This document shows, piece after piece, positions 15,500-37,698 of a DNA stretch of 64,000 nt. The translations under genes and the position numbers were made by a program. A model generated the notes under the pieces. It had not been told where the DNA came from. It saw only the letters and a program-made list of their open reading frames with translations, and ran no database searches. Source of the DNA: Flavobacteriales bacterium (GTDB lineage: Bacteria; Bacteroidota; Bacteroidia; Flavobacteriales_F; PHOS-HE28); the NCBI GenBank assembly GCA_024103275.1, contig JAGFIV010000100.1, positions 62,001-126,000 of the forward strand, given 5' to 3'. Position 1 is the stretch's first letter. Every line of letters starts with the position of its first letter.

Positions 15500-15973
15500 A
15501 TGCGAAAGGAAGCTGTTCATCCCGGATTCCTCACCAAGGCCCGCGCCTGGTGCGCCCGCCAGGAGCGTTCCCAGCAGGAAGTGCGGGACAAGCTTTGCGG
15601 TTGGAAGGCCCCTGCGAAGGATATCGAGGCCATTGTGGCCCGGCTCATTGGCGAGGGATTTCTCAACGAGGCCCGCTTCGCGGAACATTTTGCCGTGAGC
15701 AAGAGCCGCCAGAAGGGCTGGGGCCGCAGGAAGATCGAACTGGCGCTGAAGGCCAAGGGCGTTTCGGACGCCTGTATCGTGGCGGGCCTGCGCGCCATCG
15801 ATGCAGGGGAGGAGGAAGAGCAGTTGCGGATCGCCGTGGCCAAGCGCTGGGAGCGGGTACAGGAGACGGATCCCTTTGCCCGCCGGGAGAAGGTGATACG
15901 CTACTTTCTGGGCAAGGGATTTGAGCGGGACAACGTAGAGCGCGCGCTCAGTACCAACGAGCTCGGGCGGTAG
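15500..15973 (+). CDS. recX: RecX family regulatory protein
   Basis: 157 residues from the ATG at 15500; the longer open frame upstream runs antisense through mntA and is not coding. Three tandem three-helix RecX modules are seen: LTKARAWCARQERSQQEVRDKL, ARLIGEGFLNEARFAEHFAVSKSRQKGWGRRKI, and a C-terminal unit ending RYFLGKGFERDNVERAL. RecX binds and limits RecA filaments. TATGTTGC lies about 9 nt before the start. It stands alone here, without recA. Confidence 0.88.
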   Translation: MRKEAVHPGFLTKARAWCARQERSQQEVRDKLCGWKAPAKDIEAIVARLIGEGFLNEARFAEHFAVSKSRQKGWGRRKIELALKAKGVSDACIVAGLRAIDAGEEEEQLRIAVAKRWERVQETDPFARREKVIRYFLGKGFERDNVERALSTNELGR

Positions 15974-16493
15974 TTTCCAATACCTCAGGGCTATCGGGTC
16001 CAATTTCTCCCGCCAGTACTGGGAATGTGCCGGAACAGCAGGCCCATCGTCCGGCGATCCTGTCCCCCCTTGTGCCCGCCGAACGGCGGGCTCAGGGCGA
16101 GGGGGCGGACCAAAGCGAGCGGCGGTCCGGGGAGCAAGGAACGCACGCTGGGCCTGCTGTTCCTACCCCTTTGCCGAAGTCATGACCGTTGATGAATTAA
16201 GACGCGATAGCCCTGGGGGAGCGGTCCTGAAGATGTGCCGGGCAACTTGGCTTCACCACGTCGGTGGCTCGTATCGCCAGCCTGCACGTGGAAGATACCT
16301 GTGGGCGCCAGGTTTCCTCCGTGTGCTTTCCGTCCGCGTGCATCAAGCAAGCAAATGCGCGGTGCAAATCAAGTGGTGCGGCACCTGGCGGCAACGCCGG
16401 GGGGCACAAGGATGGCCCTGCCCGGTTGACCTGGGGGCGACGTGGCCTGAAAGACTTCCGCTGCTTGGCACAGGCTAACGCAGGAACACCCGA
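15974..16493. other. Gene-free stretch with strong secondary structure
   Basis: About 520 nt between recX and a small convergent gene. The first part (16032-16163) is a perfect-armed inverted repeat described separately. From 16164 to 16493 there is a 98-codon plus-strand frame starting at 16182 behind a TACCCCTTTGC-like sequence, but its composition (RRDSPGGAVLK, WRQRRGAQGWP) does not look like a protein and no family is recognised. No tRNA or known RNA is seen. Confidence 0.5.
16032..16163. repeat. 132-bp inverted-repeat element with nested hairpins
   Basis: GGAACAGCAGGCCCA at 16032-16046 is the exact reverse complement of 16149-16163. Inside lie a tight hairpin CCCGCCG-AA-CGGCGGG (16075-16090), C-run/G-run pairing around it, and a second hairpin CGGACC...GGTCCG (16106-16129). 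The whole element could fold into one long branched RNA or cruciform. No transposase or target-site duplication is visible. Confidence 0.7.
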
Positions 16494-16874
16494 TCACCGC
16501 CGATTGGGTCCAACGATCTCCCCTTTTGGCCGGCCCTTCAGGAAGACGCACCGATGCTCCCGGTCGAATTCCAACCAATCACAGGGCAGGGTGGGGCCTC
16601 CGAGGAAGCTTTCCACGATGCAGAAGTCTTGCCAGTACCGCGCCCCATCCTTCTCCACGATGCCGTGCAGCCCCCGTTTCTCCCATTCTTCAATCATGCC
16701 ATCCATGCTCCTGGGGTCCATGGCCCCGGTGCGGAACAGGTGGTCGTCGTGCCAAAGCACGCCGGAGAAGCCCTGCTCATGATCCTTCTTGAACTGGGCG
16801 AAACCGCCGGGATATACGCGGTCGATGTTGGCGATCGGGATGATCAGGTCGATGAATTCACAGTGGATGGCCAT
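16494..16874 (-). CDS. Small uncharacterised cytosolic protein
   Basis: 126 residues from the ATG at 16874 (MAIHCEFIDLIIPIANIDRV). It has no signal or TM segment. The sequence is rich in Trp, Asp and His: YPGGFAQFKKDHEQGFSGVLWHDDHLFRTGAMDP, with a C-terminal part DWLEFDREHRCVFLKG. It matches the look of a recurring small bacterial family of unknown function with the opening (C/S)E(F/Y)IDIIIPI..I..VYPGG. No operon partner is evident. It is convergent to nothing and lies alone between the inverted-repeat region and the antiporter. Confidence 0.7.
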   Translation of the reverse strand: MAIHCEFIDLIIPIANIDRVYPGGFAQFKKDHEQGFSGVLWHDDHLFRTGAMDPRSMDGMIEEWEKRGLHGIVEKDGARYWQDFCIVESFLGGPTLPCDWLEFDREHRCVFLKGRPKGEIVGPNRR

Positions 16875-17131
16875 GGCTCCGGGATTATGCCGTTGGCCCG
16901 GCCAACGTAGCAAAAATGGCGGTCATTCGTTCGGGGAATTGCCGGGCCGATGACTATGGTCCGGCCTGACGCCGATGCGGTCAGGGCGGTCAGGTAGGCA
17001 GAGAAGGCTTTGTCCACACTTTCCACCCTCGCCGGATCCCCACCTCCCGCCTGGAATTGCGGGTGCGTGGCCGGCCGGTATCCGGAGGCCGTCCAGGCCG
17101 GGCTGGTAAAGATGCGGACCCGCTTTCCGGC

Positions 17132-19375
17132 TCATTCCCGCACGGCCTTCTGCCCGTCCATGAAGGCCATGATCTTTTCGCCGTTGCCCACCAGCCAAAG
17201 CACATCGCCTGCCTGCAGGACGAAACCGCCATCGGGGTTCATGATCCGGCTGTCGCCACGTTCCACCCCCGCCACCATGGCCTTGGCCTGTGTGCGGATG
17301 CCGCTGTCGTGGATCCTTTTGCCCGCCAGGGGTGACTGCGGGGTGACGCGAAAGCGGCGCAGGCGGATGTCGTCCTTGGTGGTCTCGGGCTGCACCGGCC
17401 CGGAGCGGGGGGTGTCCAGCTCTTCCTGCAAGGCCGCCAGCTGGGTGTCGGTGCCGATCACCAGCAGGTTGTCGCCCGGGAGGATGCGCACGTCGCGGTC
17501 GGGCGCGGGCAGGGTGAAACCGCTGGCGCGTTCCACCAGAGCGATGTTCACGCCGTGGCGTTCGCGCAGGGCCAGTTCCTGTAGACTGCGGCCCGCCGAG
17601 GCGGAGTCGATGGATACGCGCACCTGCGCCAGGTGCATGTCCCATGGGGCCAGGTCGGTGCGGCGTAGCTGGTATTCGCGCTGGTTGAGGTTGCGCAGGA
17701 AGCGGTCCTCCACGCGCAGGTAGAAGCGGTACAGGCGCTGGCGGAAGAGCGCGGCCACCACGACCGTGAGCGCCACCAGCACCACCAGGGCCCCGGCGGT
17801 GCTGAAAAACACGTTCACCAGCAGGGCCAGCACCAGCACGGCGGCACCCAGTCGCACCAGCTCCAGCATCACCAGGGGGCCGCGCATGTGGCGCTTGTTT
17901 ACCCAGAGCTGCCTGTATGCGCTACGGTTGATGCGGCGCAGCGACATGGCCCAGATGAAGGGCAGCACCAGCAGGAAGGTGGCCAGTCCCGCCAACGCCT
18001 TGCCCGGGATGCCCATGAACCCCGACCCGAACAGGGTGATGAAAGCAGGGCCCGCCACCAGCACCGTGGCCAGGCACAACACGGCAAATACCGCCATGTT
18101 GAGGGTGTAGGAGCGAAGCAGCTTGCGCCACGCGCTGGTCTCCTTCACCTGGTCGGTCTGGCTGGCATAGCGGTCCAGCGCCTTTTTCATCCGCGCCGGC
18201 AGCGCGCGCTCGAGCCATTCGGAGAAGGGCTTCGATGCGCGGATCATGTAGGGCGTGGTGAAGGTGGTGACCGCCGCCACCGCCACGGCCAAGGGGTAGA
18301 GGAAGGCGCTGGTGACCTTCAGGGTAAGGCCCAGGGTGGCGATGATGAAGGAGAACTCGCCGATTTGCGACAGGCTCATGCCCGTGCGCACGGCACGCTT
18401 CAGGGGCTCACCCGCCAGCAGCGCGCCCGTGAATGCCGTAAGCGGCTGGAAGAACATGACCACGAACGACAGCAACAGCACCTGCGGCCAGTGCTCCCAC
18501 AGGATGCGCGGGTCCAACATCATGCCTACCGAGACGAAGAAGATGGCCCCGAAGAGGTCCTTCACCGGGTGTACCAAATGCTCGATGCGCTCGGCCTGCA
18601 CCGTTTCCGCCAGCAGGGCCCCCATGATAAAGGCGCCCAACGCCTCGCTGAAGCCGGCGTTCACCGCCATTACCACCATGGCCAGGCACAGCGCCACGGC
18701 CACTACAAGCAAGGTCTCGTCCGTCATCAGTTTCCTGGTGCGTGCCAGGAAGGTGGGGATCAGGAAGATGCCGCCGGCGAACCACAGGATGAGGAAGAAA
18801 CCGAGCTTGCCCAGCTCCCACAGCATCTCCGTGCCGGAAAAGTGCTGGCTGACGGCAATGCTGCTCAGCAACACCAACAGCAGCACGGCCACCAGGTCCT
18901 CGATCACCAGCACGCCCACCACCACGGCGGAGAACACCTGCGTCTTCAGGCCCAGTTCCTCCAGGGCACGCGCGATGATGGTAGTGCTGGACATGGAGAT
19001 GATGGCCCCCAGGAAAAGGCTGTCCATGCGGTTCCACCCCAGCGCCTGCCCGGTAAAATAGCCGGTGGCCAGCATCAGCCCCACGGTGACCAGTGCGGTA
19101 ATGCCCGAGGTGCCCCCCACCTTCACCACCTTCTTGAAGCTGAACTCCAACCCCAGGCTGAAGAGCAGGAAGATGACGCCCAGGTCCGACCAGACCCGGA
19201 TGCTCCCTTCATCGATCACCGTGGGAAGGCCCGGCACATTGGGCCCCACCAGCACCCCCGCGATGATGTAGCCCAGCACCAGCGGCTGGTTGATCTTCTT
19301 GAAAATGAGCGTGGTGATGGCCGCCACGGCGAGGATCAGGCCGAGGTCAGCGATCAGGTTGGGAAGCAGGTCCAT
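17132..19375 (-). CDS. CPA2-family cation:proton antiporter with two RCK_C domains
   Basis: 747 residues. The N-terminal Na+/H+ exchanger domain has about 12-13 helices (residues 5-385; LGYIIAGVLVGPNVPG, ISMSSTTIIARALEELGL, SVGMMLDP, SLSQIGEFSFIIA). A second membrane block at about 430-560 links to two C-terminal TrkA-C/RCK_C domains (about 600-670 and 680-745) that bind nucleotide or ions and gate transport. It most likely exports K+ or Na+ in exchange for H+ (KefB/RosB-like). The NAD-binding RCK_N domain is absent. Start chosen at MDLLPNL, where the first helix begins. Confidence 0.88.
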   Translation of the reverse strand: MDLLPNLIADLGLILAVAAITTLIFKKINQPLVLGYIIAGVLVGPNVPGLPTVIDEGSIRVWSDLGVIFLLFSLGLEFSFKKVVKVGGTSGITALVTVGLMLATGYFTGQALGWNRMDSLFLGAIISMSSTTIIARALEELGLKTQVFSAVVVGVLVIEDLVAVLLLVLLSSIAVSQHFSGTEMLWELGKLGFFLILWFAGGIFLIPTFLARTRKLMTDETLLVVAVALCLAMVVMAVNAGFSEALGAFIMGALLAETVQAERIEHLVHPVKDLFGAIFFVSVGMMLDPRILWEHWPQVLLLSFVVMFFQPLTAFTGALLAGEPLKRAVRTGMSLSQIGEFSFIIATLGLTLKVTSAFLYPLAVAVAAVTTFTTPYMIRASKPFSEWLERALPARMKKALDRYASQTDQVKETSAWRKLLRSYTLNMAVFAVLCLATVLVAGPAFITLFGSGFMGIPGKALAGLATFLLVLPFIWAMSLRRINRSAYRQLWVNKRHMRGPLVMLELVRLGAAVLVLALLVNVFFSTAGALVVLVALTVVVAALFRQRLYRFYLRVEDRFLRNLNQREYQLRRTDLAPWDMHLAQVRVSIDSASAGRSLQELALRERHGVNIALVERASGFTLPAPDRDVRILPGDNLLVIGTDTQLAALQEELDTPRSGPVQPETTKDDIRLRRFRVTPQSPLAGKRIHDSGIRTQAKAMVAGVERGDSRIMNPDGGFVLQAGDVLWLVGNGEKIMAFMDGQKAVRE

Positions 19376-19555
19376 CGCCGGCAAACGCGGTGCCGCCAAG
19401 GTAATCCGTGGGCCTGTTCAGCGATCTTTCCCCGCCGGGCGCGGATGTGCCAAGGGAAGTTGATGCCGAAGGATCGGCCGCCACCACGGCCTCCATTTCC
19501 CGCCCAACCTGGTGCTTCGCATCTTCGCGCCCTTATCCGCGTACTTTTTTCCGGC

Positions 19556-37580: not shown

Positions 37581-37586
37581 AAAAAA
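37581..37586 (-). terminator. T-run terminating SRP RNA
   Basis: TTTTTT directly after the closing stem of the SRP RNA on the minus strand. The RNA's own terminal helix acts as the terminator hairpin. Confidence 0.75.
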
Positions 37587-37688
37587 GCGGGGCAAGCTCC
37601 TCGCATCGCTCCGCTACGACCGCCTACCCTTGCTGCCTTCCGGCCCTGGGGGGTTCAGCGGGAGCTGGACGTACGAGACTTGCCCCGC
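37587..37688 (-). ncRNA. ffs: Signal recognition particle RNA (4.5S/SRP small bacterial type)
   Basis: A 102-nt minus-strand RNA closed by the perfect 10-bp stem GCGGGGCAAG / CTTGCCCCGC. The apical region carries the conserved SRP motif around AGGGCCGGAAGGCAGCAAGG, which forms the GGAA-capped tip and the symmetric and asymmetric loops bound by Ffh. It is followed by a run of six T. It is the small type without an Alu domain. It guides inner membrane and secreted proteins to the Sec translocon. Confidence 0.93.
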
Positions 37689-37690
37689 GC

Positions 37691-37698
37691 CAAAGGTA
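37691..37698 (-). promoter_or_regulatory. -7 element of the SRP RNA gene
   Basis: TACCTTTG, exact TAnnTTTG, ending 2 nt before the closing stem of the SRP RNA. This places the start point 2-4 nt after the element if the RNA is not processed at its 5' end. Confidence 0.7.

Follow-up and report, generated by a model that had tools for sequence, protein, structure and literature searches.

A palindromic repeat that is very probably a miniature mobile element with ISAs1-type ends, at a doubtful junction in a Flavobacteriales draft genome

The locus and the limits of the repeat

The window, which is the whole stretch of 64,000 nucleotides analysed here, comes from the draft genome of a Flavobacteriales bacterium, and near position 16,000 it carries a palindromic segment with recX on its left and an antiporter gene (17132-19399) on its right. 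Between the segment and the antiporter gene lies a 139-aa reading frame on the minus strand (16494-16913) for which no Pfam match was found at E 0.001, and a search of 38 other genomes of the genus with the DNA of 16217-16930 gave nothing at E 1e-5. At gathering score, a search of the whole window against Rfam returned nothing besides a Bacteroidales small SRP RNA, located far from the segment (37586-37692, minus strand, 103 bits).

A sequence-only reading of the window had described a 132-bp inverted repeat with exact 15-bp arms at 16032-16163. The repeat was borne out, with limits that turn out to be too narrow: it is the core of a larger element of 230 bp (15986-16215), whose true ends were located through the finding of a second, outer inverted repeat, and similarity stops at just these positions across the alignment of the 20 copies in the genome. 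The terminal inverted repeats are about 17 bp long and of the CAGGGCTATCGCGTCTT type. The left one, CAGGGCTATCGGGTCCA (15986-16002, plus strand), agrees with the ISAs1 end CAGGGCTATCGCGTCTT except at 3 of its 17 positions, while the right one, AAGACGCGATAGCCCTG (16199-16215, minus strand), belongs to a stretch of 20 bp identical to the right end of a 1216-bp ISAs1 element in the sister genome G004.

Inside these ends, the left arm of the inner repeat (16032-16053, plus strand) pairs with the right arm (16142-16163, minus strand). The exact 15-bp arms are GGAACAGCAGGCCCA (16032-16046) and TGGGCCTGCTGTTCC (16149-16163); extended to 22 bp, the arms show 91% complementarity with two mismatches, and the majority consensus built from the 13 long copies pairs at all 22. 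The nested hairpin with a 2-nt loop that had been reported is present at 16074-16091 as GCCCGCCG-AA-CGGCGGGC, with a stem of 8 bp instead of the 7 bp first given. The GC content of the element is 65%, and one plus-strand frame (frame 1) is open across its whole length. We judge this frame and the ORFs that overlap the element to be chance frames of high-GC DNA; the earlier statement that nothing codes here is consistent with the element's frames, although one of them stays open throughout.

Copies of the element in the source genome

The source genome (3.58 Mb in 137 contigs, with completeness given as 100%) was searched with the 251-bp region, and the matches were read together with their flanks. 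There are 20 copies on 16 contigs, so that the element is not single copy. Thirteen are long copies of 228-230 bp, the window's included, and the others comprise L051 with 224 bp, a damaged copy that sits at a contig end (L052), four 101-bp forms (L053-L056) and an 86-bp copy that has decayed (L057). The start CAGGGCTATCG occurs in all 20 copies and the end CGATAGCCCTG in all 19 that have two ends, each with at most two differences. Pairwise identity among the 13 long copies is 90-98%, with a mean of 95%, and 7 alignment columns separate the window copy from their consensus. L051 (G000:C90:97551-97774) is peculiar in that its core reads inverted relative to its own ends, and it is flanked by a perfect 10-bp duplication, AAAGGCACAA.

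The 101-bp copies are deletion forms in which 128 bp are missing between two CTGGG words. Three of the four are flanked by a duplication of their own (10, 9 and 10 of 10 positions), and the fourth, L055, has a right flank equal to the left flank of the window copy. The deletion may have arisen once, in a form that then moved, or it may have happened repeatedly in copies already inserted; were the former true, movement would not require the inner hairpin. Independent dispersal of that hairpin within the source genome was also tested and is ruled out, since 13 of the 14 genomic sites of the central hairpin sequence GCCCGCCNNNNGGCGGGC fall inside copies of the 230-bp element.

Target duplications

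The 10 bp on either side match at 9 or more positions in 11 of the 19 two-ended copies, a level of agreement that two 10-mers drawn at random from the window reach with P = 0.00014. Eight copies fail this test. One of them, L050, agrees at only 2 of 10 positions but at 8 of 9 with a 9-bp spacing, as judged by eye, and is thus a possible twelfth duplication that would reduce the failures to seven: L038 (the window copy), L039, L044, L045, L049, L055 and L057. In five of these at least one flank pairs exactly with the flank of another copy, the exceptions being L039 and L057. The exact 10/10 matches join L038 left to L055 right, L052 left to L038 right, L044 left to L045 right, and L045 left to L049 right; looser resemblances are seen between the right flanks of L039 and L044 and between the left flanks of L043 and L049.

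Flanking direct repeats, which had been proposed as a check on the mobile-element idea, are found as 10-bp duplications in the majority of copies, but the two flanks of the window copy agree at only 2 of 10 positions and form no target duplication. Its left flank TCCAATACCT (15976-15985) is half of a duplication whose partner, matching at 10/10, is the right flank of L055 on contig C26, and its right flank GGGGAGCGGT (16216-16225) is half of another duplication whose partner, again at 10/10, is the left flank of L052 on contig C106.

The junction at the window copy

The flanks of the window copy stem from separate insertions, so the assembly most likely passed out of one copy and into a second within the repeat, and the junction at 15986-16215 is probably a chimera. 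The gene order of relatives bears on the two sides separately. On the left, recX and about 10 kb either side were read in 8 of the 27 relatives with a match. In five of the eight (G010, G022, G016, G060 and G061) recX is followed by the gene from contig C26, with 51-120 bp between the matched parts. This gene encodes PCRF and RF-1 domains, hence a peptide chain release factor, and is most likely prfB. In G002 (G002:C7, L118) 4.9 kb separate recX from the release-factor gene, which was not found in the stretches read from G004 and G019. None of the eight recX stretches contains genes from the window's right side.

On the right, the surroundings of the antiporter gene were read in 10 of the 24 relatives with a match. 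In four of the ten (G031, G004, G002 and G028), the corresponding side of the antiporter gene carries the gene at 43702-44463 of contig C106, which in G031 adjoins the antiporter gene and is followed by two more C106 genes in order. That side holds only a 33-34% match of an ABC-transporter frame in G061, G020 and G059, the last of which also shows, on the opposite side of the antiporter gene, a match of 44%, and no C106 gene was found near the antiporter gene in G022, G013 and G032. Genes of the recX side or of C26 are absent from all ten antiporter stretches.

A rearrangement in the living cell could produce the same picture, by recombination between two copies of an element that would still be a MITE. 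With some 95% identity over 230 bp, the copies have the potential to recombine, and the core of L051, inverted relative to its ends, may record an event of this general sort. A single exchange, however, requires directly repeated copies and removes the segment between them, yet C26 and C106 are both still in the assembly. Moreover, 126 bp of C26 precede its copy, C106 breaks off in garbled sequence about 100 bp beyond its own, and two other mispaired copies also lie near contig ends (L044 within 140 bp and L049 within 50 bp). A true rearrangement is thus improbable, and a misassembly is favoured because a single exchange would have excised the intervening segment. The placement of the repeat between recX and a small protein gene, on which the first description relied, is accordingly unsafe, being probably an assembly junction whose two sides belong with the C26 and C106 copies, and conclusions from gene order should not be drawn across position 16000, since the two halves of the window may well not adjoin in the living cell. 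Like labels carried by each insertion, the target duplications reveal where the joins of a draft genome are doubtful, one such join being in the window.

Mismatched or exchanged duplications were likewise observed at L039, L044, L045 and L049, and because of these, further wrong joins or rearrangements in the draft genome are likely. According to the cited portions of the literature on such repeats, repeats including MITEs break or misjoin Bacteroidia assemblies (a set of papers that includes PMC10969869, PMC5771137, PMC9208149 and PMC3281130).

ISAs1-family elements in sister species

The 251-bp region was also used to search 58 genomes, comprising the source genome and others of the same genus and the same class. 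Outside the source genome, the matches listed span at most 51 bases and often coincide with the element's end. Among the matches listed, the inner arms are not conserved in relatives, whereas the outer ends do occur in them. The sister genome G004 (record JAMLHB01, Flavobacteriales bacterium) contains three 1216-bp elements with the ends of the miniature element. Two of the three are identical and the third differs by 1 base, and all are flanked by perfect 10-bp duplications. They encode a 368-aa protein with the Pfam domains DDE_Tnp_1 and DDE_Tnp_1_assoc, which scores 371 bits against the NCBIfam profile NF033564 transpos_ISAs1 (cut-off 70). Insertion sequences of the ISAs1 family make target duplications of about 8-10 bp. 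In a second sister genome, G066, an element of 1218 bp shares these ends and is 73% identical to the G004 element; no matching duplication was found at its flanks (4/10).

The sequence shared with the 1216-bp insertion sequence amounts to 18 bp at the left end of one long copy, L046, to be set beside the 20 bp at the right end of the window copy. Only these ends, of about 20 bp, align. An origin of the interior from the 1216-bp element by simple internal deletion was therefore rejected. Among 45 genomes of the genus, the window's included, an ISAs1 transposase exceeds the cut-off in three (G004, G066 and G032), and a match in G016 falls below it. No ISAs1 transposase was found in the source draft genome; a 1.2-kb repeat could be missing from an assembly of 137 contigs.

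Sister miniature elements and their interiors

When pairs of CAGGG-type ends 80-420 bp apart were collected from loci of the source and sister genomes, 18 distinct short elements of 149-306 bp were found outside the source genome. These have other interiors, and 14 of the 18 are flanked by duplications matching at 9 or more of 10 positions. A looser scan added elements in G021 (270 bp), G003 (229 bp), G032 (262 bp), G015 (347 bp) and G028 (236 bp), with a duplication visible by eye in some of them only. The interiors that were folded fall into six groups (the window's own; G004/G006/G028; G021; G003; G032; G015), which show no similarity to one another beyond the ends at E 0.01 among the matches listed.

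These interiors tend to fold strongly. With the 18-bp ends removed, all 13 long elements reach z <= -2.3 and 10 of the 13 reach z <= -4.6; in a control of 300 stretches of 193 bases taken at random from the window, 14 reach -2.3 and none reaches -4.6. The short forms do not reach these values (z -1.3 and +1.2). The 13 folded elements lack mutual independence, the control was drawn from a single window, and the collection of elements is not an unbiased survey; strongly folding interiors are therefore a pattern worth testing and not a result. In addition, the G004-type interior was found inside the end variants CAGGGCTATCGCGTC, CAGGGCTATCGGGTC and CAGGGCAAACGCATC; of the ISAs1 element in G032 a single end is visible, and it is CAGGGCAAACGCATC too. 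A wider reading of these observations, which we regard as speculative and on the whole unlikely, is that across the genus ISAs1-type ends came to enclose six or more unrelated, strongly palindromic interiors (most of the elements measuring 220-350 bp in total), that a nested hairpin interior is selected or repeatedly generated, and that interiors switch between parent transposons. Were it true, a nested hairpin interior might help the ends to find each other or keep the insert harmless. Miniature elements with exchangeable interiors form a natural series in this genus, in which their origin can be studied.

A palindromic core made of hairpin units like GTGCGACACCCTTCGGGGTCGA is also seen dispersed in part of the genus (L172-L191 and other loci of G004, G006, G028, G019, G031 and G032). 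Twenty stretches with the G004-type core were read, and with up to 3 mismatches to one end type allowed, 10 are bounded by ends left and right, 4 have a single end, and 6 have none (L177, L178, L180, L181, L184 and L191). The last of these lies in the source genome itself, at C53. A dispersal of the G004-type interior without ends, as partial matches had suggested, has been largely withdrawn, given that 14 of the 20 stretches have at least one ISAs1-type end.

Structured RNA and REP-like repeats as alternatives

The sequence-only reading had offered three identities for the hairpin, namely a miniature mobile element, a REP-like repeat and a structured RNA. As a structured RNA, the element would be the gene of an sRNA or a regulatory leader that is repeated by coincidence. 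The fold is indeed very stable: for 15975-16225 it has z = -4.7, with none of 200 shuffles as good, and the other strand reaches z = -4.2, likewise beyond all 200 shuffles. That both strands fold well is, however, expected of palindromic DNA. Transcripts of MITEs, as described in the cited portions of several papers taken together, fold stably (PMC10969869, PMC2229807, PMC5771137, PMC9769881, PMC3733652, PMC9208149, PMC3281130, PMC5756416). Covariation gave nothing positive in the window's own family. In the alignment of the long copies (A1, with 13 of 20 copies kept and L051-L057 dropped), two-sided changes occur in 0 of 46 pairs of the outer, inner and central helices, where 95% identity leaves low power, and the pairing in these copies equals the mean with shuffled partners. 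The G004-type interior, unrelated in sequence, behaves differently, with two-sided changes in 8 of 40 pairs, a number reached by none of 500 shuffles. The alignment behind this figure (A2) holds 17 G004-type elements selected as nearly complete in length, two of which (L022 and L160) have extrapolated outer limits, and leaves out L161, L165, L175, L176, L179, L182, L183, L187, L188, L190 and shorter matches. Two-sided changes are also expected from relatedness or from DNA-level correction between palindrome arms; slid controls in this sister family gave 1 to 5 such pairs, and the RNAalifold covariation term is small (-0.56). No Rfam family reaches its gathering score in the element region: a search of 15900-16500 with E up to 10 yielded five weak matches, all below gathering scores, with a best E of 0.3. 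A sigma-70 type scan of the same interval, which may not fit Bacteroidota promoters, found no promoter- or terminator-like site. A structured RNA is thus very unlikely to account for the element.

A REP- or REPIN-like palindrome moved by a RAYT (IS200-like) enzyme is less credible still, to the point that we give it hardly any weight. The element is short, palindromic, dispersed and non-coding, as such repeats are. Against this, it measures 230 bp and has terminal inverted repeats and 10-bp target duplications, and its inner hairpin is not dispersed alone, as the hairpin counts given above show. REP palindromes are 20-40 bp long, as stated in the cited part of PMC3733652, versus a unit of 230 bp in the window.

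Identity and proposed movement of the element

Of the three identities, the miniature mobile element was the right one. The window feature is very probably a copy of a non-autonomous MITE with the ends of an ISAs1-family insertion sequence, because it is multicopy, has terminal inverted repeats and is flanked across its family by 10-bp duplications, and because a matching autonomous insertion sequence exists in a sister species. With 230 bp it has no room for a transposase, and it has its ends in common with the larger G004 and G066 elements. Insertion sequences of the ISAs1 family carry the transposase inside the element, for which this one, being non-coding, is too short. With only its ends and duplication length in common with ISAs1, it is not classed as an insertion sequence.

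Judging from the sequences, the element was probably mobilised by an enzyme that a larger transposon encodes. An ISAs1 transposase made by another element would act in trans, recognising the 17-18-bp ends and either cutting the element free or copying it, and insertion at a target with a 10-bp stagger would then give rise to the 10-bp duplication. The nested hairpins would be a passenger interior. They are probably not needed for movement, because the 101-bp forms lack most of the interior and sit between duplications, unless each was deleted in place. An anonymous hairpin has in this way been settled as a mobile element and tied to a likely kind of parent transposon.

Comparison with known systems

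The kind of element is already known and is an ordinary one, and the member itself is new. Plasmid and phage collections gave no match to the element, and one exact 30-base pattern had none in viral contigs. Among open-access papers, judged by their titles and abstract openings, we met no ISAs1-type miniature elements in Flavobacteriales. Three MITEs are reported from Aeromonas in the cited part of PMC5756416, which does not give their family. MITEs are typically AT-rich, according to the part cited of a review (PMC10969869), versus the 65% GC of the window element.

The closest comparison is with the ISAs1-family insertion sequence represented by the 1216-bp G004 element. It resembles the window element in its ends and in its 10-bp duplication; the window element differs in having no transposase gene and in an interior that is unrelated beyond the ends at the sensitivity used. 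The IS982-derived MITE of Cardinium, as far as the cited part of PMC9769881 describes it, is likewise gene-free and multicopy and has its ends in common with an insertion sequence. The two differ in the family of that insertion sequence, and for the window element no parent was found in the source genome. The RUP element of pneumococcus, which in the cited part of PMC2229807 is of IS630 type, uses a TA target and is 107 bp long, differs in these respects but is again a small repeat tied to an insertion sequence by its terminal repeats.
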